DNA from: a virus
IMG/VR virus record: IMGVR_UViG_3300000553_000004
Coordinates: 150,734 to 214,733 of that record
DNA: 64,000 nt
Reading direction: 5' to 3' (one strand)
Below, piece by piece: positions 4,776 through 63,210 of this stretch; within the stretch, counting starts at the first letter, position 1; every line of letters starts with the position of its first letter. The notes below the pieces were generated by a model that worked only from the letters and a program-made list of their open reading frames with translations, did no database searches and was not told where the DNA came from. The position numbers and the translations under genes are program-made.

Positions 4776-5171
4776 ATGTGGAAATTCAAATTCACCAAAC
4801 CCAAACCTGTGTTGAGTGTTGCGCCCGAGACAGTAGTGGCCGAGGCGTCTACGATAAACATTGATTGTGTGTATCTATCCATACTTAATGATTTGGAACC
4901 GGCAAATGTTAATGATTGGGCCTGTAACCATAATTGGTATGGAAACCAAAGAAAAGGTTATATAATCTTATGCAATTCAGACCTTAAAACCGCAACTGTG
5001 GCTAGGATGTTTAATAATATTTTTACCACATCACAAGAACGGACAATTTACAAAAAGTGTAAGGATATGGAACGTCTAAAAGACGAAGAAAAATCGATTC
5101 GTGACCATCTAGCAGACCTTGAAACCTTAAAATCCAATTTTCCTCATTGTGTCTCACCGACAACCAAGTGA
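4776..5171 (+). CDS. hypothetical protein, 131 aa
   Basis: Begins MWKFKFTKPKP and ends with a charged coiled-coil-like helix (residues 95-120). Middle section has a WACNHNWYG motif of unknown meaning. Stop TGA 5169-5171 is immediately followed by the CGCTTGACA promoter of the next gene. Confidence 0.6.
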   Translation: MWKFKFTKPKPVLSVAPETVVAEASTINIDCVYLSILNDLEPANVNDWACNHNWYGNQRKGYIILCNSDLKTATVARMFNNIFTTSQERTIYKKCKDMERLKDEEKSIRDHLADLETLKSNFPHCVSPTTK

Positions 5172-6037: not shown

Positions 6038-6412
6038 ATGAAACGGACTTCCACAAAAACCAAACCACAAAGAATGTCTGGCTTCATGTCGGTATTGCCG
6101 ACTCGACGAATCGTTCATGTCAAAATCATAAACATCAACAGCGGCGAATATCCATTCCAAGTTGTATTGGTGGAAGACGACAAAGTGGTAGCAGAAGATT
6201 TTGAATTTTTCTTCGTGGCAGACCCATCATTAGTTAAACTTTATCCGACCCGAGAATCTGCCGTTCACGGTGAACTTGAACGGTTACACGAAGAATACAG
6301 TAAAGAACGTCGGAAGTTGAGAATTCAACAGCAGAGATACAAGTGGGCATTACGTCAGGTTGAAGATTACAAACACTTCGACGAATTGCAAAATCCAATC
6401 TTTACACAATAA
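6038..6412 (+). CDS. hypothetical protein, 124 aa
   Basis: Standard promoter at 6004-6031 sets +1 at ATG 6038. N-terminal 30 residues are basic (KRTSTKTKPQR), the centre is a beta domain and the C-terminal 45 residues form a long charged helix. Family not recognised. Confidence 0.65.
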   Translation: MKRTSTKTKPQRMSGFMSVLPTRRIVHVKIININSGEYPFQVVLVEDDKVVAEDFEFFFVADPSLVKLYPTRESAVHGELERLHEEYSKERRKLRIQQQRYKWALRQVEDYKHFDELQNPIFTQ

Positions 6413-6415
6413 AAT

Positions 6416-6691
6416 ATGAAACCCGTTAAATTTGAATCATTTCACAAATCACACCAGCGAATTTTTGGAAGTAAACCCACCTTCCGAGAAATGGCATTAG
6501 GCGATGGAATTAACAGACACCAACGCCGTGTGATTAATACGGAGAATGTGAGTGAGGCGGTTATCACCAGAACCAAACCTACCAAATCTAAAAAGAAAAC
6601 TCTTTGTCCCCACTGCGCCACGACCAATTTGATTAAGGTGGATGCGTACAGCAATGAATGTACTAATTGTGGTTGGAATGAGTTGAGTTGA
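6416..6691 (+). CDS. zinc-ribbon protein, 91 aa
   Basis: C-terminal CPHC (residues 67-70) and CTNC (residues 84-87) form a typical four-cysteine zinc ribbon; the preceding KPTKSKKK stretch is basic, suggesting nucleic-acid binding. Starts 3 nt after the preceding stop. Specific role unknown. Confidence 0.65.
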   Translation: MKPVKFESFHKSHQRIFGSKPTFREMALGDGINRHQRRVINTENVSEAVITRTKPTKSKKKTLCPHCATTNLIKVDAYSNECTNCGWNELS

Positions 6692-6692
6692 T

Positions 6693-6986
6693 ATGAATAT
6701 CAAAGTAATAAATCTTGTAGAATTTGAAGCCATCGTAAGGGCCAAATTGAAACACAATTGGGACAGAGACATCAAACAACATCAGACTTGTAATTTGATT
6801 GGATACTTGATGACGTCAGGCTTTCCTAAATTGGATGTCAACAACTTTGGTGTATTTCTCAAATCATTACAAGAATCAATCGTCATAGACTCCGTGGCCG
6901 TGGATTTGAATGATGCTACATATTACTATCTAATCAACGGAACTTCACAAGGATTAATCAAGAAATCCGATGTTCAGCCAGTGTGA
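6693..6986 (+). CDS. hypothetical protein, 97 aa
   Basis: Starts 1 nt after the zinc-ribbon gene. Mixed alpha/beta composition, no recognised motif. Ends shortly before the next promoter at about 7000. Confidence 0.6.
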   Translation: MNIKVINLVEFEAIVRAKLKHNWDRDIKQHQTCNLIGYLMTSGFPKLDVNNFGVFLKSLQESIVIDSVAVDLNDATYYYLINGTSQGLIKKSDVQPV

Positions 6987-7033
6987 AATCGTGAAGGCTT
7001 GACTTATTTCATAGGTCTGATAAATTAACTCCA

Positions 7034-7414
7034 ATGAACGAAGAACCAACACCGACAAAAAACGTAGAAAAAGTGACGAACTTTCTATTTTATTACGATT
7101 GTATTCCAGAGACAAATGCAATTCGTCTTAAATTATTGAATTTGGCAGAAATTATTCAAATCAATAAATACGATTTTGTGTTTCAGATGCCTACCGTTCA
7201 CGTCATGGACACCACCAAAAATGTTAAACCGACTATCGAAAAGTATATTAATTGGAGAGGTAAAGAACGTGAACGGGAAGTGTATCCTAAACCTAAACCA
7301 TTCCCATACGCACATTATTTGGTATTTTCCTCACCATTAACAGAAAAAGAATTGGAATTTTGGAGAATTTTTAAATTGGGATATTTATCCCATCGATGCG
7401 GAGTTTATTTATGA
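7034..7414 (+). CDS. hypothetical protein, 126 aa
   Basis: Promoter TTGACT-16-TAAATT lies 7 nt before ATG 7034. Aromatic, basic protein; the C-terminus overlaps the next gene by several codons. No motif recognised. Confidence 0.6.
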   Translation: MNEEPTPTKNVEKVTNFLFYYDCIPETNAIRLKLLNLAEIIQINKYDFVFQMPTVHVMDTTKNVKPTIEKYINWRGKEREREVYPKPKPFPYAHYLVFSSPLTEKELEFWRIFKLGYLSHRCGVYL

Positions 7415-7914
7415 AACCTATTAGTCAAAGAGTGGCCGAGAAATTGGAACGAGAAAGAAAGGAACGTATGAGACGTTCTACCGGAGAAAAACGGTATAAA
7501 TCTTTTAGTATTCCACTATACGGATACCCCTACATTGAGACTGAGGGTGATATTCTATTTCTAAAGATGCAGGCCAAGAAATTTGTCGATACGTGTGTAC
7601 ATTTCGCTCCATCTCAATTTTTGCAACTGGTGAAAGATGCCATTCACGAAAAAGAAGAGAACGAGATTACACGGAGAAACACTCCGCCGGTGCCGGAGGT
7701 GTTGTTGATGTCGCCCACTGTGTCGGCATACACAGAACCGACTGTAGCTCCACTGACAGAAGAACAGTTGAATGATTTATCTGAACTATCTGACGCATTA
7801 CGTTCTAATAGAAGTGTCCCCGAGACTCCTCTACCGTCTAGTGTACTACGAGCCACATCCAACTTAGGTGACTATTACACGAGTGCGGCAATCCATTACA
7901 CAGCCATAGGGTGA
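7411..7914 (+). CDS. hypothetical protein, 168 aa
   Basis: An in-frame ATG exists at 7396, but ATG 7411 (MKPISQRVAEKLERERKER) overlaps the preceding TGA as ATGA, the usual coupling, so I prefer it. N-terminus is a strongly basic helix, C-terminus is proline/threonine-rich and low complexity. Function unknown. Confidence 0.6.
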   Translation: MKPISQRVAEKLERERKERMRRSTGEKRYKSFSIPLYGYPYIETEGDILFLKMQAKKFVDTCVHFAPSQFLQLVKDAIHEKEENEITRRNTPPVPEVLLMSPTVSAYTEPTVAPLTEEQLNDLSELSDALRSNRSVPETPLPSSVLRATSNLGDYYTSAAIHYTAIG

Positions 7915-19885: not shown

Positions 19886-19947
19886 GGGTGGTTAGCTCAT
19901 TGGCAGAGCCCTTTGTATGATGGGTTCGATTCCCATACCATCCACCA
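19886..19947 (+). ncRNA. tRNA-like RNA lacking the anticodon stem
   Basis: Acceptor GGGTGGT/ACCATCC with A-CCA encoded, D arm GCTC-ATTGGCA-GAGC and T arm ATGGG-TTCGATT-CCCAT are all intact, but only ten bases (CCTTTGTATG) lie between D and T arms where about 22 are expected. A standard promoter (19852-19879) puts +1 exactly on the first G of the acceptor stem, so the RNA needs no 5' processing. Either a tRNA that lost its anticodon stem or a tRNA mimic. It cannot decode normally. Confidence 0.7.
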
Positions 19948-22585: not shown

Positions 22586-22819
22586 ATGAATCGTTACACC
22601 GAGTTGACCTGTAAGTTTTGGCCCCATTACAATATCACGGCAGGCTTAACAAACCTTGCCTTTTGGTTGCCATCTGTTATATATTGGACACCGCCGGTAA
22701 TATTTCCAATTATAACATCGTCAATGGGAATGCTTTGTGTCTATTGGGGAATACAGGGAATTCTACATCATCGTCACCAGCGTAAACAACGCTTGACTAA
22801 AAGTAATCCGTTGGTATAG
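22586..22819 (+). CDS. small membrane protein, 77 aa
   Basis: Follows by 3 nt. Hydrophobic region residues 14-55 (AGLTNLAFWLPSVIYWTPPVIFPIITSS) implies two membrane helices; basic C-terminus HHRHQRKQR faces the cytoplasm. The promoter for the tRNA genes lies within its last codons. Confidence 0.6.
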   Translation: MNRYTELTCKFWPHYNITAGLTNLAFWLPSVIYWTPPVIFPIITSSMGMLCVYWGIQGILHHRHQRKQRLTKSNPLV

Positions 22820-22830
22820 TTATTTGTGTC

Positions 22831-22909
22831 GCGGATGTAGCTGAGTTGGATTTCAAGCAGTGGTTTTCTAAACCACGTTACGTGGGTTCAAATCCCACCA
22901 TCCGCACCA
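22831..22909 (+). tRNA. tRNA-Arg (TCT)
   Basis: Acceptor GCGGATG/CATCCGC, discriminator A and encoded CCA; anticodon stem GTGGT/ACCAC with loop TTTCTAA (anticodon TCT, reads AGA); T arm GTGGG-TTCAAAT-CCCAC. D stem is only three clear pairs. Promoter TTGACT-16-TATAGT with 10-nt leader inside the previous gene. Confidence 0.85.
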
Positions 22910-22916
22910 ATTTTAA

Positions 22917-23015
22917 TGGCCTTTAGCTCAATGGCAGAGCAGAGCACTCACGCGGGCAGTTACGCCTGCATCGTTAATGCTTTGGTTGACAGTTCGAGTC
23001 TGTCAAGGCCAACCA
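22917..23015 (+). tRNA. tRNA-Asn (GTT) with 24-nt insertion in the anticodon loop
   Basis: Acceptor TGGCCTT/AAGGCCA, A-CCA, D arm GCTC-AATGGCA-GAGC, T arm GACAG-TTCGAGT-CTGTC. The anticodon stem GAGCA/TGCTT encloses 31 nt. Removing 22949-22972 leaves the perfect Asn loop CTGTTAA, so the insert lies exactly between U33 and G34. The insert folds as hairpin GCGGGC-AGTTAC-GCCTGC. It is far too short for a group I intron. The 3' half overlaps the end of a reverse HNH gene. Confidence 0.75.
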
Positions 23016-23622
23016 TTTTATTATTAGGATAATGTAATTCCATGTGACAGTTATGACATAATAATTGACATTTATTAACTTCAATTTGTAATTTATTGAA
23101 GGAATATCCCGACATTTTTCTTAAATCCAATCCACTTTCTTTTTCATTTGGATTTTTGTGATGAAACGTTAATGCTGAATAATTTCTGTTGTATCCACAA
23201 TTACTACATTTACCACCCAATTGTTTAATAAAAAATAATTTTCGTTCAATCCCACGATTTTTATTTTTAGTATAATTATTTTTTTCATTTTGAAAATTAA
23301 ATTGACTTTTACTAACTTTATATGTTCCTTCACTCATCGCAATAGTTTTTAAGTTATACTTTTTTAACCAATATCTTATGTTTGTTTGAGAAGATGACAA
23401 CATTTTGGCTATTTGATATGTTGATTTGTTTTGATTTATTAACTCTTTTAATTTATCAAGTGGAATTTCAACGTGGTCATAAGGAGAATTTATTGTTTTA
23501 ATTCCAAGTTTTTTCATATATCGTTTTGTCGTAGTCACCGGCATATTCAATTCTTTGGCAATTTTATAGTATCCATATCCTTTTTTAGATAGTTCTTTAT
23601 ATTTTTCTATTAGATGCTCCAT
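22960..23622 (-). CDS. HNH homing endonuclease with N-terminal HTH repeats
   Basis: 220 aa. Two helix-turn-helix units (YYKIAKELNMPVTTTKRYM, residues 18-36; TYQIAKMLSSSQTNIRYWL, residues 68-86) precede the HNH domain: CSNCGYN (137-143), LTFHHKNP (151-158) and CQLLCHNCH. The last 18 codons are antisense to the 3' half of the tRNA-Asn gene, so the natural C-terminus may be near LHYPNNK. Likely a mobile gene sitting beside the interrupted tRNA. Confidence 0.8.
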   Translation of the reverse strand: MEHLIEKYKELSKKGYGYYKIAKELNMPVTTTKRYMKKLGIKTINSPYDHVEIPLDKLKELINQNKSTYQIAKMLSSSQTNIRYWLKKYNLKTIAMSEGTYKVSKSQFNFQNEKNNYTKNKNRGIERKLFFIKQLGGKCSNCGYNRNYSALTFHHKNPNEKESGLDLRKMSGYSFNKLQIEVNKCQLLCHNCHMELHYPNNKMVGLDRLELSTKALTMQA

Positions 23623-49978: not shown

Positions 49979-50370
49979 GGGCTCGTAATGGTTTCGACAT
50001 GATGTTGAAGATAAACGAAGCACGCCGAGGATGTTATCAGGACTCGTAAAAAGATAACAAAAACATAAATGCTAACCTTAACCGTTTGGCCAACCTCGAT
50101 TTTTCATTCTCGGTGAATGAAGTTGAGGTCGCAGTAGCTTAATAACTACTCCGTCGCACTGACCGACTTCCTCTAAGTTGGATGTGGCGTAAAATAGAGG
50201 AAGAACTGCTTGTAGTTTAAATTATAAGACTGATACGAAAGGCCAGTATGCCAATCTATGACATGTAGGTTGTTCATTACCGATAATGTCGAATTCACCA
50301 AAATGAAATAAGCGTGTAGCGTCGGTTGTTAGATATGTTATGGACGTTGGTTCAACTCCAACCGAGTCCA
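49979..50370 (+). ncRNA. ssrA: transfer-messenger RNA (tmRNA) with 23-residue tag
   Basis: 5' GGGCTCG pairs with 3' CGAGTCC, including G3-U70, the alanine identity pair; discriminator A follows and CCA is not encoded. GGTTTCGACATG and the T arm GTTGG-TTCAACT-CCAAC are standard. After ATAAAT the resume codon GCT (50071) opens ANLNRLANLDFSFSV then NEVEVAVA and TAATAA (50140-50145). The tag is longer than the usual 8-15 residues and ends AVA rather than LAA. It rescues stalled ribosomes; a phage copy is rare. Confidence 0.9.
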
Positions 50371-50391
50371 GGGAACAGTAGAATACAACCT

Positions 50392-50976
50392 TCACGGTGG
50401 TTGTTCCTGAGTAATGCTAATAGTATTCTTATGAGAAGAGATGATTTCTTTAATAAAAGATTTCATCTCTTCTTTTTTAAAATTACTTTTGGCATTATTG
50501 ATTGCCATACATACAAATTCAACATTTCCTCTAATATATCCCTTCGACGAATCTATTCTATCTAAACTAGCTTTTTTTAAAGATTTTAGTTTGTGATTTT
50601 GAGATGACGTTTTCATCAATTCCATTTTTATTCCTGTGTATGGACATATTCCATTTTGTTTATTCCATAATTCTTTTAAATATTTTTCGTCTATATCAAT
50701 ATCATTTTTGTGTTTTATTATCGATGCCCTACCTTTTCTAAGATATATTTTAAATGGTGTATATTCGGTTAATCTATTTCCTGAATATTTTTTTATATTA
50801 GTGTTAGATGGAATAGTTTTCCAGAATTCTTCACTCATATTTTTATTTCTGTGAGACGTTGAACACGATTGATTGCAAAAATGTTTCATTTCTTTTTTCT
50901 CACATCTTTTAAATTCTTTTAATAATTTTTCGAATGGAATTCCACAATTCTCACATTTTATTTTAATGGTTTTCAT
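50392..50976 (-). CDS. HNH homing endonuclease
   Basis: 194 aa. N-terminal treble-clef zinc region (CENCGIPFEK ... CNQSCSTSHRN), then CPYTGIKMEL, KASLDRIDSSKGYIRGN and FVCMAINNAKSN, the HNH core with D-x-I-D. Close paralogue of the 55335 gene. Start preceded by CTATTTAT-TTAT. Lies between tmRNA and a truncated tRNA-like hairpin. Confidence 0.85.
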   Translation of the reverse strand: MKTIKIKCENCGIPFEKLLKEFKRCEKKEMKHFCNQSCSTSHRNKNMSEEFWKTIPSNTNIKKYSGNRLTEYTPFKIYLRKGRASIIKHKNDIDIDEKYLKELWNKQNGICPYTGIKMELMKTSSQNHKLKSLKKASLDRIDSSKGYIRGNVEFVCMAINNAKSNFKKEEMKSFIKEIISSHKNTISITQEQPP

Positions 50977-51972: not shown

Positions 51973-52710
51973 ATGGAATTAAAAGAACTCATCAATGAAG
52001 CTAAATACGTCGTTGCATTTACAGGTGCGGGTCTGTCAACGGAGTCTGGTATTCCAGATTTCCGGTCAAGTAGCGGACTTTATTTAAGTGGAAAATACGA
52101 AGGATATACTCCTGAACACATCTTGAGTAATCGTTTCTTTCGTTCAAATAAAGAAATCTTCTTTTCATTCTACAAGGAAAGAATTATGGCGATGTCTGAC
52201 AAACAACCCAGCCGTGCGCATTTTGCATTGAAAAAGATGCAGGACGTTGGAAAGTTGAAATCGGTAATTAATCAAAACATTGACAATCTAATTCAAAAAG
52301 CTGGCACCACCAACGTTTTTGATTTACATGGAAATATTTCATCGTTCAGATGTGTCAGCGCTTGTGGTAAAGATTATACAGGCGAAGAATTCATGAAGAT
52401 GATGGAAGACAAGCCGGTTCCTCGTTGTGAATGTGGTGGAGTCGTAAGACCGAACACCGTTCTATTCGATGAATGGTTGAATGATGACATCTATGATGGT
52501 GCCTATCACGAAGCCAAGAAGGCTGATTTGATGATTGCAATTGGTTCATCGTTGGTCGTAAGACCAGCCTGCACATTGTTGTCAGAAATTGGCCCTGATT
52601 GTAAATTGGTAATTCTCAATAGGGATGAAACTCCCTATGACAAGAAAGCCACATTGATTCTTCGTGAACCGTGTGGTGAAGTGTTGGAGAATTTGGCAAA
52701 GGAATTATGA
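51973..52710 (+). CDS. Sir2-family NAD-dependent protein deacylase
   Basis: 245 aa, full length for bacterial CobB-type enzymes. GAGLSTESGIPDFRS binds NAD, NQNIDNLIQKAGT and LHGN (catalytic His) follow, two cysteine pairs (CVSACG, CECGG) hold zinc, and IGSSLVVRPA closes the NAD pocket. It consumes NAD to remove acyl groups from lysines. TTGACA-17-TAGTAT promoter with an 8-nt leader heads an operon of six ATGA-coupled genes to 54732. Confidence 0.9.
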   Translation: MELKELINEAKYVVAFTGAGLSTESGIPDFRSSSGLYLSGKYEGYTPEHILSNRFFRSNKEIFFSFYKERIMAMSDKQPSRAHFALKKMQDVGKLKSVINQNIDNLIQKAGTTNVFDLHGNISSFRCVSACGKDYTGEEFMKMMEDKPVPRCECGGVVRPNTVLFDEWLNDDIYDGAYHEAKKADLMIAIGSSLVVRPACTLLSEIGPDCKLVILNRDETPYDKKATLILREPCGEVLENLAKEL

Positions 52711-55513: not shown

Positions 55514-56380
55514 ATGTTAGGTGCTATTATCGGCGATATAGTAGGCTCTCCGTATGAAGGGTCTTCTTTAAATTGGGTGGATGATAAATCATTCCCTCTA
55601 TTTGCAAATGAACTTTCGAGATTCACAGACGACACAATCTTGACCTGCGCTACCGCAGACGCATTATTGAAAATCAGTGATAATAGATGTGATGATAACA
55701 CAGAGTCGTTGATGTCAATGGATAAGATATTTGCCGAGAAATACATAGAATGGAATTTAAAATATCCTGGTCGTGGATATGGAAGTGGATTTCAACAGTG
55801 GGTTGATAACGGTGGAATCGACATAAATCCAAGTTATGCAAATGGATGTATGATGCGTTGTAGTCCAATACCGTTATTTTATATAGATTCATATATGGCA
55901 AGATATACGGCATATGATAGTATTAAAATGACACATAATTCTCCTGAATCGCATCGAGGCGTATGTTCAATCGTGTCTGCTATTCATATGGCTTTACAAG
56001 GTTCTACCAAACTTCAAATCAAAGCTTATGTAGAAGAACAATTCGGTCATATGTTAGATTTAACGGTAGAACAATGGAGAGAACATCCTAAGACTTCGAT
56101 TAGGTGTAATCTCTCAGCTCCACAATCATTAGTATGTTTTATGGAATCTACTGATTATGAATCTACCATCAGAAATGCCGTTTATACTAAAGGTGATACT
56201 GATACTACTGCTGCAATTGCCGGTTCTATTGCAGAAGCTTTCTACGGAGTTAAGTCGATTCCACAAGAGATGATTGATGGAGCTAAATCGAGAATGACGC
56301 CTGAGATGATAGAATTGGTAAATAAATATTATTCAATAATTGGGGAACGTAGAGAACAATATAAAGGATTTAAAATATGA
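55514..56380 (+). CDS. ADP-ribosylglycohydrolase (DraG family)
   Basis: 288 aa. GAIIGDIVGSPYE, SRFTDDTILT (metal-binding TDDT), THNSPES and GDTDTTAAIAGSIAEAFYG are the four classical motifs. It removes ADP-ribose from proteins or nucleic acids. Coupled by ATGA to a predicted outer-membrane protein. A second member lies at 59807. Confidence 0.9.
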   Translation: MLGAIIGDIVGSPYEGSSLNWVDDKSFPLFANELSRFTDDTILTCATADALLKISDNRCDDNTESLMSMDKIFAEKYIEWNLKYPGRGYGSGFQQWVDNGGIDINPSYANGCMMRCSPIPLFYIDSYMARYTAYDSIKMTHNSPESHRGVCSIVSAIHMALQGSTKLQIKAYVEEQFGHMLDLTVEQWREHPKTSIRCNLSAPQSLVCFMESTDYESTIRNAVYTKGDTDTTAAIAGSIAEAFYGVKSIPQEMIDGAKSRMTPEMIELVNKYYSIIGERREQYKGFKI

Positions 56381-57067: not shown

Positions 57068-57143
57068 ATCCCATTAACTCAGCGGCCAGAGTGATGCTCT
57101 CTAAAAGCTTTCGTCATCGGTTCGAATCCGATATGGGATACCA
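57068..57143 (+). tRNA. suppressor tRNA, anticodon CTA (reads UAG)
   Basis: Canonical 76-nt tRNA: acceptor ATCCCAT/ATGGGAT, A-CCA encoded, D arm ACTC-AGCGGCCA-GAGT, T arm ATCGG-TTCGAAT-CCGAT, 5-nt variable loop. Anticodon stem ATGCT/AGCTT has one T-T mismatch; loop CTCTAAA gives CTA at 57101-57103. It should insert an amino acid at amber codons; the charging identity cannot be read by eye. A gene at 15229 has exactly one in-frame TAG. Confidence 0.8.
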
Positions 57144-59504: not shown

Positions 59505-59810
59505 ATGGAAAAATCTTATTGTTATATACTTCAAACTATAGAAAATACGTTATATTGCGGATGGACGCTTGATTTAGATAGACGAGTTATAGAACACAAT
59601 TCCCCAGATAGTAAAACAAAACATACAAGAATTCGTCAACCAGTAAAATTGGTTTATTTTGAAGAATTTGATACGAGGGCAAAAGCGGCCCAACGAGAAT
59701 GTCAAATAAAACGATTATCAAGAAAACAAAAAATCGAATTAATTAAACTAAAATATCCAGAATTTACTATTCCTAATTTTGTTAAGAAACCACCATTTAT
59801 AAAAATATGA
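59505..59810 (+). CDS. GIY-YIG domain protein (UPF0213/YhbQ-like)
   Basis: ATG 59505 chosen over an upstream start because MEKSYCYILQTIENTLYCGW begins exactly at the domain. 101 aa single-domain nuclease with YCGWTLDLDRRVIEHN and REKR-like core, as in bacterial UPF0213 proteins. Coupled by overlap to the ADP-ribosylglycohydrolase. Confidence 0.8.
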   Translation: MEKSYCYILQTIENTLYCGWTLDLDRRVIEHNSPDSKTKHTRIRQPVKLVYFEEFDTRAKAAQRECQIKRLSRKQKIELIKLKYPEFTIPNFVKKPPFIKI

Positions 59811-60721
59811 CATTACGAGAAAGATATAGAGGCGCCATGTTAGGTTTGGCGGTTGGAGATGCGTTGGGCGTTCCAGCAGAATTTCAAGAACGAGGAACAT
59901 TTCCAAAGATTACTGAAATGATTGGCGGTGGCCCATTTCGTTTAAATCCTGGCGAGTGGACGGATGACACGACTATGGCATTATGTTTGGCAAATAGTTT
60001 GCTTGAAACAAATGAATTCAATGCAAAAGACCAAATGGATAAATACTGGCGATGGGTAGAGGATGGATATATGTCAAGTAATGGTAAAATGTTTGACATT
60101 GGAGATACTACATCAGAAGCACTTTGTAGATACAGAAAAACTGGCAATCCAATGGCAGGCAGCGACGACCCAAAATCTGCTGGTAATGGTTCTATAATGA
60201 GACTGGCACCAATACCACTTTTCTTTAAGGAAGATGACCAAGGATATCTTTTGACGGCAGCAAGATTAAGTTCAAAAACCACACATGGAGCCAAAACCTG
60301 TATTGATTCTTGTGTTTTATTATCTCTAGCAATTTATTTTGCTTTGAGAGAATTTCCTAAAGAACATTTGTTAAATATATTTACAGAACCGCCGCCATAT
60401 ACATCACCGGAGGTAATAGACATAGCAAAGGGTTCTTATAAAACCAAAACCGAAGACCAAATCAAATCAACGGGATACGTCATCCATACTCTTGAGGCGG
60501 CTTTGTGGTGTTTTCATAATACCGATACATTCGAGGATGGTTTGATAAAGGCGGTCAATCTTGGTCATGATTCAGATACCACAGGCGCCGTATATGGTCA
60601 ACTGGCAGGCGCTTATTACGGAGTTCAGGCGATTCCCCAAAGATGGCTTGACAAGATAGTGAAACGTGATATTATAATAACCGTCGCAGATAATCTGTTC
60701 GACAATAGACCATGCAATTAA
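59807..60721 (+). CDS. ADP-ribosylglycohydrolase (DraG family)
   Basis: 304 aa. RGAMLGLAVGDALGVPAEF, GEWTDDTTMAL, GNGSIMRLAPIP, THGAKTC and GHDSDTTGAVYGQLAGAYYG are complete and closer to bacterial enzymes than the 55514 copy, so the two are not recent duplicates. Removes ADP-ribose from macromolecules; may reverse host ADP-ribosylating defences. Confidence 0.9.
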   Translation: MTLRERYRGAMLGLAVGDALGVPAEFQERGTFPKITEMIGGGPFRLNPGEWTDDTTMALCLANSLLETNEFNAKDQMDKYWRWVEDGYMSSNGKMFDIGDTTSEALCRYRKTGNPMAGSDDPKSAGNGSIMRLAPIPLFFKEDDQGYLLTAARLSSKTTHGAKTCIDSCVLLSLAIYFALREFPKEHLLNIFTEPPPYTSPEVIDIAKGSYKTKTEDQIKSTGYVIHTLEAALWCFHNTDTFEDGLIKAVNLGHDSDTTGAVYGQLAGAYYGVQAIPQRWLDKIVKRDIIITVADNLFDNRPCN

Positions 60722-61073: not shown

Positions 61074-61874
61074 ATGAAAACGACGGAATTATTATGTAAT
61101 AAATGTGGAAAATCGTTTTTGATGATAGTAAAATACTATAATCAAAAAATTAAAAATGGTCAAAAAGAATTTTATTGTAGTAGAAATTGTTTTATTGATA
61201 ATGTAAAAAGAAAACCAATAAAGAAAATTTGTTTATATTGTCATAAAGAATTTGATTCGACGACATTTAAAGACGCTAAAAACTGTTGTTCTAATGTTTG
61301 TTCTTCAAGATATTCTCAATCATTTGTAAATAAAGATAACATTTCAAAATCTATGAAAAGATTTTGGAAAAACAATCCACAATTACATAAAAAAACAATT
61401 CCGGTTTTGTGTATTTTTTGTAAAGCCGAATTTATTCCAAATGGACAAGAAAAGTGTTGTAGTATAGAATGCAGAAAAAACAAAATGAGATTAAATGGGT
61501 TACTTTCTGTCCAAGTTCAAAAAGAAAATAGACGTAGTAAAAATGAAATTTATTTCGCTGAATTGTGTAAAAAACATTTTCAAAACGTAGAATTTAATAT
61601 ACCAAAATTTAATGGGTGGGATTGTGATGTAATTCTCAATGACCAAAAAGTTGCGGTTATGTGGAATGGTAAATGGCACTATGAGAAGATTACAAGAAAA
61701 CATTCGGTCAATCAAGTTCAAAATAGAGACAAGATAAAATTGAATGAAATCATTAAATGTGGATACACTCCATATGTAATAAAAGACCTTGGAAGAGAAG
61801 ATAATGTGTTTGTAGAATCTGAATTTAAAAAGTTTACAAAATTTTTGTTGACAGATTGTAAAAATGGTATATAG
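61074..61874 (+). CDS. zinc-finger plus Vsr/PD-(D/E)XK-like homing endonuclease
   Basis: 266 aa. Three zinc-knuckle pairs (CNKCGK...CSRNC; CLYCHKEF...CSNVCS; CIFCKAEF...CSIEC) precede a nuclease domain WDCDVILNDQKVAVMWNGKWH then YTPYVIKD, the E-x-x-D-x-x-x-W/H pattern of Vsr-like very-short-patch/EDxHD homing enzymes. Preceded by CTATTTAT-AGGT-ATG. Confidence 0.7.
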   Translation: MKTTELLCNKCGKSFLMIVKYYNQKIKNGQKEFYCSRNCFIDNVKRKPIKKICLYCHKEFDSTTFKDAKNCCSNVCSSRYSQSFVNKDNISKSMKRFWKNNPQLHKKTIPVLCIFCKAEFIPNGQEKCCSIECRKNKMRLNGLLSVQVQKENRRSKNEIYFAELCKKHFQNVEFNIPKFNGWDCDVILNDQKVAVMWNGKWHYEKITRKHSVNQVQNRDKIKLNEIIKCGYTPYVIKDLGREDNVFVESEFKKFTKFLLTDCKNGI

Positions 61875-62049: not shown

Positions 62050-62217
62050 ATGAAAACATCTTTTCAACAAGCGGATGAAATAAAAGATGCAAGAGACAAA
62101 GAGTTTCTTGACCAGTTTGAAAGAATTAGAGATGATAAACGAGAACGTGATAAAAAGACACGTCAATGGTCAAAACAGTTTGAAAAGTATTTTAAAGAAA
62201 ATTTAATTGGCGTATAA
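62050..62217 (+). CDS. small charged protein between tRNAs, 55 aa
   Basis: ATG 62050 to TAA 62215-62217. MKTSFQQADEIKDARDKEFL and basic helix DDKRERDKKTRQW. Its last three codons are also the first bases of the next tRNA gene, so its mRNA end and the tRNA 5' end overlap. Confidence 0.55.
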   Translation: MKTSFQQADEIKDARDKEFLDQFERIRDDKRERDKKTRQWSKQFEKYFKENLIGV

Positions 62218-62282
62218 CTCAATGGATAGAGTATTGGTCTTCGAAACCAAGAATTTCGGTTCAAGTCCGAATATGCCTACCA
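62208..62282 (+). tRNA. tRNA-Arg (TCG)
   Basis: Anticodon arm TTGGT-CTTCGAA-ACCAA, D arm ACTC-AATGGATA-GAGT, acceptor TGGCGTA/TATGCCT with a T-T first pair, A-CCA. Overlaps the 3' end of a small gene. Confidence 0.8.
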
Positions 62283-62288
62283 AATTTT

Positions 62289-62360
62289 GCCTCTGTAGTT
62301 CAATGGTTAGAACGGGAATTTTGTAAATTTCAGATAAGCGTTCGATTCGCTTTTGAGGCT
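62289..62360 (+). tRNA. tRNA-Thr (TGT)
   Basis: D arm GTTC-AATGGTTA-GAAC, anticodon arm GGAAT-TTTGTAA-ATTTC, T arm AAGCG-TTCGATT-CGCTT. The acceptor has weak pairs 6 and 7 and CCA is not encoded (TCGC follows). Confidence 0.75.
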
Positions 62361-62361
62361 C

Positions 62362-62436
62362 GCTCCTATAGTATAATGGGTATTATTCGTGTTCGGTAAA
62401 CATGAGACGTGAGTTCAATTCTCACTGGGAGCTCCA
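62362..62436 (+). tRNA. tRNA-Thr (GGT), C33 variant
   Basis: Acceptor GCTCCTA/TGGGAGC, T-CCA, anticodon stem CGTGT/ACATG with loop TCGGTAA. The usual U33 is C if the loop is seven nt. T arm GTGAG-TTCAATT-CTCAC. Confidence 0.65.
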
Positions 62437-62443
62437 AAATTTT

Positions 62444-62517
62444 GCCCGTTTAGTATAGTGATATTATGACGGTTTCGTAAACCGAAGACAGGAGTTTGAT
62501 TCTCCTAACGGGCTCCA
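62444..62517 (+). tRNA. tRNA-Thr (CGT)
   Basis: Acceptor GCCCGTT/AACGGGC, T-CCA encoded, anticodon loop TTCGTAA (anticodon CGT) on a four-pair stem CGGT/ACCG, T arm AGGAG-TTTGATT-CTCCT. Third Thr tRNA in a row. Confidence 0.75.
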
Positions 62518-62566
62518 AAATTTATATACGCTTGACAAAAAGTTTTGTTCGTGTATAGTTATTAAT

Positions 62567-62629
62567 GTTCGGTAGTTTAACGGAAGAACACTTAATCACA
62601 GTGATGTTGGCTCTAATCCAACTCGAACA
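62567..62629 (+). tRNA. degenerate tRNA-like gene
   Basis: Promoter TTGACA-16-TATAGT then GTTCGG/TCGAAC acceptor, T-arm-like GTTGG-CTCTAAT-CCAAC and anticodon hairpin CACT-TAATCAC-AGTG. Total only about 63 nt, T54 replaced by C, anticodon ambiguous (ATC?). Either aberrant or decaying. Confidence 0.45.
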
Positions 62630-62638
62630 AGAATTTAT

Positions 62639-62713
62639 GGTGGGAAAGCCAAACGGTCAGGCAAGACTCTGCAAAAGTCTTTTTAGTTAGTTCGACTCTA
62701 ACTCTCACCTCCA
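62639..62713 (+). tRNA. tRNA-Cys (GCA)
   Basis: Acceptor GGTGGGA/TCTCACC, T-CCA, anticodon arm AGACT-CTGCAAA-AGTCT (anticodon GCA), T arm GTTAG-TTCGACT-CTAAC, D stem GCC/GGC. Confidence 0.85.
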
Positions 62714-62886
62714 GATTTTGCCGTTAGTGTAACAGACGTGAGAAAGCACAGTCGGAGTGTTATCTATAACGATTGGATGATATAGACCATCATAAAGGCT
62801 TGACAGAGAAGTAATTCGATTGTATGTTAAGCGAATAATGAGACAGAGACGGTGACATAACGGAGTTCCGTCACGGTGATTATTGT

Positions 62887-63210
62887 ATGAGTGATTCGAT
62901 TCAGAAAGACGATGAAAAGTTTAATGATTTAATCACTAAACAACATCCAACGTATGAATCATTTGCCGAATCGTTGCCATCTACAAATGACAACATTGAA
63001 AATGATGACGCCAAGTTAGAAACTTTGGTATATCTTCAAGACATAACGCAAGGGCCGAGAGAACATGATTCACTTGAAGAAAAGTATGAAGAAGAAATCA
63101 TGATTAACGAAGTCACGAAGATGCTTGATAACGATTTTAAAAGACGGTTGCAGCAAGGTGAAGACCCATTCGCCGAATTCTTTAGAAAAAAGGAAGACGA
63201 GCAATGGTGA
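62887..63210 (+). CDS. acidic hypothetical protein, 107 aa
   Basis: Glu/Asp-rich and helical, with EEEIMINEVTKMLDNDFKRRL. Preceded by GTGAC/GTCAC hairpin (62851-62876). Stop overlaps the next ATG. Unknown. Confidence 0.6.
   Translation: MSDSIQKDDEKFNDLITKQHPTYESFAESLPSTNDNIENDDAKLETLVYLQDITQGPREHDSLEEKYEEEIMINEVTKMLDNDFKRRLQQGEDPFAEFFRKKEDEQW

Follow-up and report, generated by a model that had tools for sequence, protein, structure and literature searches.

A 24-nt hairpin splits the anticodon loop of an otherwise intact tRNA gene of a phage, most likely of the CAU type. An antisense gene for an HNH endonuclease, relatives of which recurrently pair with tRNA-CAT genes, overlaps this tRNA gene. 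Tentatively, we favour reading the hairpin as a target-blocking insertion that would belong to the homing history of this HNH lineage at phage tRNA(CAU) genes. The basis is a single metagenome record of 214,733 bases (214.7 kb). The stretch of 64,000 nucleotides analysed here, called the window, is part of that phage record, and positions refer to the window unless the record or a contig is named.

A phage tRNA gene carries a 24-nt hairpin in its anticodon loop

The Rfam tRNA model matches 22917-23012 with 54.7 bits, a score that includes the penalty for a long insertion, and an encoded CCA follows. ARAGORN missed the gene at default settings and reported 22917-23015 with a 24-nt intron once introns were allowed. 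On direct reading every stem is paired, as originally predicted: 7 bp in the acceptor, 4 bp in the D stem, 5 bp (one G-U) in the anticodon stem and 5 bp in the T stem. The anticodon loop has 31 nt instead of the usual 7: CTCACGCGGGCAGTTACGCCTGCATCGTTAA. The body of the tRNA shows no decay, which is also compatible with a functional processed RNA or with a recent insertion. The features of the locus are as follows.

22831-22909, plus strand: ordinary tRNA-Arg(TCT), directly upstream (ARAGORN/Rfam-type tRNA scan)
22917-23015, plus strand: interrupted tRNA gene, most likely CAU (Ile2/Met type) (Rfam, ARAGORN, direct reading, comparison with phage tRNAs)
22917-22923 and 23005-23011, plus strand: acceptor
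22926-22940, plus strand: D arm
22942-22946 and 22978-22982, plus strand: anticodon stem
22951-22974, plus strand: insert, placed between A35 and U36 in the favoured register (MAFFT gap and HNH register); 22949-22972 in the Asn register
22952-22969, plus strand: hairpin GCGGGC-AGTTAC-GCCTGC, single copy in the 214.7-kb record
22988-23004, plus strand: T arm
23012, plus strand: A73
23013-23015, plus strand: CCA
22960-23622, minus strand: HNH endonuclease ORF, 220 aa, with an N-terminal HTH-like part and intact HNH residues

The hairpin has a 6-bp stem (GCGGGC/GCCTGC, one G-U). Folded alone, the insert reaches -11.2 kcal/mol, a value matched by 0.9% of its own shuffles and by 0.14% of random 24-mers from the window, and its GC content is 67% vs 40% for the window. 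No further copy of the hairpin was found in the 214.7-kb record, and a dispersed repeat was thereby rejected; a search for the exact insert sequence among viral contigs likewise found none. A group I ribozyme was also rejected: 24 nt lack the catalytic core (P3-P8), and RF00028 has no match at 22800-23100, which bears out the earlier view that the insert is too short for a self-splicing intron.

Other features of the window include a tRNA-like gene at 19886-19944 (38.9 bits) that has CCA and both the D and the T arm yet apparently lacks an anticodon arm, and a tRNA with a CTA anticodon (called Pyl) at 57068-57143, a possible amber decoder. The window also encodes a sirtuin-family protein (51973-52710) and two ADP-ribosylglycohydrolases (55514-56380 and 59807-60721), i.e., NAD/ADP-ribose genes.

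The interrupted tRNA is most likely of the CAU type

The original prediction described a tRNA-Asn with the hairpin between U33 and G34. The tRNA and its 24-nt hairpin insert stand, but not the isotype and the exact site. Excision of 22949-22972 does restore the canonical loop CTGTTAA (Asn, GTT); the same excision shifted by one or two bases gives CTCTTAA (Lys, CTT) or CTCATAA (Met/Ile2, CAT), so that three different 24-nt excisions are equally canonical. ARAGORN's own pick among these registers is Lys.

CAT is favoured by the discriminator, the closest phage tRNAs, the MAFFT gap and the register in which the HNH gene is read. Among the tRNAs collected from the loci, the discriminator found here, A73, is present in 23/23 CAT and 10/10 Lys tRNAs, while 12 of 13 Asn tRNAs carry G73; the discriminator thus speaks against a functional tRNA-Asn(GUU). 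A classifier of the tRNA body, which has moderate accuracy, scored CAT at -46, Lys at -49 and Asn at -59, a modest margin over Lys and a clear one over Asn. Among 50,697 phage records, the best full-length match was tRNA-Met of Acinetobacter phage Acj9 (84%), and it stayed the best when the Asn loop was imposed. In the MAFFT alignment with the tRNAs that partner HNH genes, the gap falls after CTCA, placing the insert between A35 and U36. The pairs C4-G69 and C5-G68 fit an Ile2 tRNA. Taken together, body, discriminator and the loop CTCATAA left after excision agree with a tRNA(CAU), Ile2 or elongator Met, and the isotype is most likely CAU rather than Asn. Lys is the remaining alternative, and the register argument for CAT is strong, not absolute.

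The choice of register also bears on the earlier claim that the insert occupies position 33/34, the exact site cut by anticodon nucleases such as PrrC. That coincidence depends on choosing the Asn register, and the evidence favours 35/36. The known substrate of PrrC is tRNA-Lys.

The overlapping HNH gene belongs to a lineage that adjoins tRNA-CAT genes

The HNH ORF runs antisense through the 3' half of the tRNA, so its C-terminal tail is antisense tRNA and its stop codon TAA (22960-22962) lies in the hairpin loop. It matches the phage HNH families PHROG 2255 and 3106 (E about 1e-22), gives no Pfam HNH match, and retains every residue that is invariant in its clade. It thus combines an HNH motif with membership in a phage HNH family, as expected of a homing endonuclease. 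The mobile-element history originally suggested by this overlap gains support here and became the most productive lead.

Relatives of the HNH protein were gathered from IMG/VR, where they occur in unrelated phages. The 3' end of the HNH gene meets a tRNA in convergent orientation in 13 pairs, and in 11 of them (the window, L023, L030, L033, L035, L037, L044, L058, L081, L089 and L109) that tRNA is CAT; the exceptions are Lys-CTT in L091 and Ile-TAT in L095. Against a background of 23 CAT among 215 distinct tRNAs in the loci, the binomial P is about 1e-9, an approximate value because the background includes the partners and some contigs are related. In L023, L030, L033 and L109 the HNH ORF closes with L-stop, its codons TTA-TGA being antisense to CTCATAA. 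The ORF of the window (..STKAL) reads in the same register and is extended only through the insert. This shared register makes an arrangement with a CAT anticodon the simplest ancestor, which again puts the insert between A35 and U36.

Two relatives reach the loop itself. In L028 and L031 (minus strand, from about 2400 down to 1690), an antisense HNH relative lies inside a group I intron that splits the tRNA as CT/CATAA (U33/C34). The L031 intron matches RF00028 with 30.6 bits (E 1.8e-4), below the gathering score of 50, and the identical core sequence was read in L028. The case shows that the CAT anticodon loop is within reach of the HNH lineage. By tree path, L023 is the closest relative, at a weakly supported fork; its partner tRNA-CAT carries an extra hairpin with a GAAA cap in the D loop. 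Hairpin inserts in tRNA loops thus occur in 2 of the 13 HNH-partner tRNAs and in none of the roughly 200 remaining tRNAs of these loci, a post hoc comparison. In nine other HNH-bearing contigs the adjoining tRNA-CAT is intact.

Relatives of the HNH gene also adjoin permuted tmRNA genes (L047, L066 and L115), and in the window a phage tmRNA gene is directly followed by an HNH-type ORF (50392-50976) on the opposite strand, the two together spanning 49979-50976. L081 is a 211-kb phage with the HNH gene at a similar coordinate; homing endonucleases alone are common to both phages in the stretches compared.

The hairpin may block the target of the HNH endonuclease

As in a T4-type mobA/byp cassette, the insert adjoins a homing-endonuclease gene and lies within a gene tied to that endonuclease. 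We propose that the landing site of the HNH lineage would be the DNA of the tRNA-CAU gene, with the conserved loop CTCATAA as its likely core; the anticodon loop is taken as the recognised target because nearly all HNH partners have it in common. By disrupting CTCATAA, the hairpin would leave the phage's own copy no longer a target. Uninterrupted tRNA-CAU genes of rival phages would still serve as targets, and co-conversion of the HNH gene and the hairpin could overwrite them. Since an uncut transcript could not decode, the interrupted tRNA would probably be sacrificed, its RNA not being spliced. Cutting of the anticodon loop, protection by the hairpin and the lack of RNA splicing are the steps that we infer from the arrangement described above.

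Several observations stand against target blocking. The nine contigs with an intact tRNA-CAT beside the HNH gene argue that a loop insert is not required for self-protection; in most HNH-bearing phages protection would come by other means, perhaps by the HNH gene itself splitting the site. Further, the group I intron of the relatives sits at 33/34, whereas the favoured register of the insert is 35/36. The undecayed tRNA body, too, would suit a functional, processed RNA. Searches found no sister genome lacking the HNH gene and, with the helicase as query, no sister phages; the GP88 relatives have little else in common near the locus.

If target blocking holds, one conserved tRNA loop would occur in three states relative to one endonuclease lineage: open with the HNH gene alongside, filled by an HNH-carrying group I intron, or blocked by a tiny hairpin. 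Such a set would make it possible to study, in one compact system, how a homing endonuclease avoids harming the genome that carries it and at what cost to the phage.

Alternative explanations for the hairpin

The strongest competitor, which we still consider unlikely, is chance inactivation: a small insertion turned the tRNA into a pseudogene, the hairpin has no role and the proximity of the HNH gene is coincidental. The single copy in the record and the lack of an exact copy among viral contigs fit this account, host tRNAs would make the loss of a phage tRNA tolerable, and decay is not expected after a recent insertion. It leaves to coincidence, however, that the insert lies inside the element common to the HNH partners, that it is a stable hairpin and not random sequence, and that a hairpin is also inserted into the tRNA partnered with the nearest HNH relative, in L023.

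A second account, in our view doubtful, takes the insert as a protein-spliced mini-intron, cut on both sides of the hairpin by an endonuclease, with the halves healed and sealed by the phage kinase and RNA ligase. The specific version in which a phage or host nuclease excises the hairpin and the phage kinase and an Rnl1-type ligase rejoin the halves seems to us slightly more doubtful. The original prediction had noted an encoded RNA ligase, and the record holds more repair parts than that:

1013-1984 of the window, plus strand: PF09414 RNA ligase, the possible sealer in a splicing model (the record has three RNA ligases in all)
61257-61727 of the record: kinase-type protein of the AAA_33 family, near the second PF09414 ligase
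62116-63168 of the record: second PF09414 ligase
134456-135556 of the record: Rnl1-type ligase (PF09511)

The intact tRNA body and the canonical loops restored by three excisions also suit splicing. On the other side, jumbo phages commonly carry RNA-repair sets to counter anticodon nucleases (PMC7824862), which accounts for these genes. Neither the PF01974 tRNA-splicing endonuclease nor RtcB was found in the phage record, while PF01974 was detected in four archaeal controls. Folding predicts a 3x3 internal loop, a 2-bp helix and a single bulge of 3 nt rather than a bulge-helix-bulge, and ARAGORN and Rfam tRNA scans revealed no comparable anticodon-loop insert in the other tRNAs found in the phage. 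In the literature we found no description of such a splicing route in bacteria or their phages. The cut-and-ligate removal first envisaged thus drew no positive evidence, nor did the idea that the insert protects the tRNA from anticodon nucleases. Removal by RNA repair is possible, not supported; if it did occur, a bacterial virus would be using a protein-type route of tRNA splicing.

It is very unlikely, in our judgement, that the hairpin is retained and functional as a tRNA-like decoy or Y-RNA-like ligand, e.g., for the phage's DUF2828 (Ro-like) protein. The phage does encode such a protein with small stem-loop RNAs upstream, and hairpins in tRNA-like anticodon regions adjoin DUF2828 genes in L165 (a 258-kb phage) and in Synechococcus phage B23. 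But those RNAs have a CAGCAWW motif in common, and within the present insert no site rises above random level (46% of random windows do as well as the best one), while the score of the B23 chimera is reached by 0.4% of random windows. We therefore rejected the insert as a DUF2828-associated RNA of this kind and did not group it with the L165 and B23 RNAs; the DUF2828 gene also lies more than 100 kb from the insert within the record.

The DUF2828 region of the record (G000:66509-66714 and 66724-68298, equal to L210:6010-6215 and 6225-7799) has three stand-alone stem-loops with the CAGCAWW-type motif. The motif occurred near the DUF2828 gene in 6/6 phages inspected (the present record, L165, L215, L216, L217 and L218), mostly in small stem-loops; in L165 (3380-4240, minus strand) and B23 (L217:3411-3520, annotated tRNA-OTHER) it has been built into tRNA-like folds. 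The motif elements in L210 and L165 gave no Rfam match. These DUF2828-adjacent elements look like phage Y RNAs and may belong to the Y RNAs already known from bacteria and phages.

A pattern search for tRNA inserts before TAA gave viral matches in L077, L078 and L164-L167 that proved to be genuine tRNA-like genes bearing anticodon hairpins; they were rejected as different systems. The remaining viral matches were nested tRNAs or chance, and matches in genomes were mostly archaeal. L077, a 415-kb contig in whose record no DUF2828 was found, has adjacent tRNA-like genes at 4776-4883 and 4932-5044 with anticodon-region hairpins of 35-37 nt, among 52 tRNA matches; the sole tRNA match of a 35.7-kb contig, L078:3758-3852 (minus strand), has an anticodon-loop hairpin of about 21 nt. 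We discarded as artefacts the introns that ARAGORN proposed in L074 (86 nt) and L053 (211 nt), since at these places Rfam finds either no match or a normal tRNA.

Finally, we judge a shrunken group I intron relic at 33/34 of the tRNA-CAU to be the least likely of these readings: that site does hold a group I intron with the same HNH type in L028 and L031, and the T4 gene 60 insert has been proposed to derive from a degenerate group I intron (PMC5009743), but no intron core sequence is left in the insert, the HNH gene here lies outside the anticodon loop, and a 20-nt relic plus a separate 4-nt insertion would be needed to leave CATcgTTAA.

Comparison with known systems

Like the protein-spliced tRNA introns of archaea and eukaryotes, the insert is short and sits in the anticodon loop, but it differs from them in having no bulge-helix-bulge and no splicing endonuclease in the phage record. 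It occupies the same loop as group I introns in bacterial and phage tRNAs, one of which harbours an HNH relative (L028, L031); unlike these, its 24 nt cannot form a ribozyme and have no reading frame of their own.

In T4, a 50-nt insert in gene 60 lies beside a homing endonuclease and has been suggested to have protected against the nuclease involved in the spread of a homing endonuclease (PMC5009743). As with mobA and gene 60, a free-standing homing-endonuclease gene is found here next to a short insert in a conserved gene (PMC5009743). In T4 the insert interrupts a protein-coding gene and ribosomes bypass it, whereas here a tRNA anticodon loop is split, with no known rescue mechanism. Homing endonucleases such as SegB act on phage tRNA regions (PMC2988022, PMC13096335), and the present endonuclease gene likewise lies among phage tRNA genes. 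SegB is of the GIY-YIG type, whereas the gene described here is an HNH gene from a lineage linked to CAT tRNAs, and it adjoins a tRNA that is interrupted.
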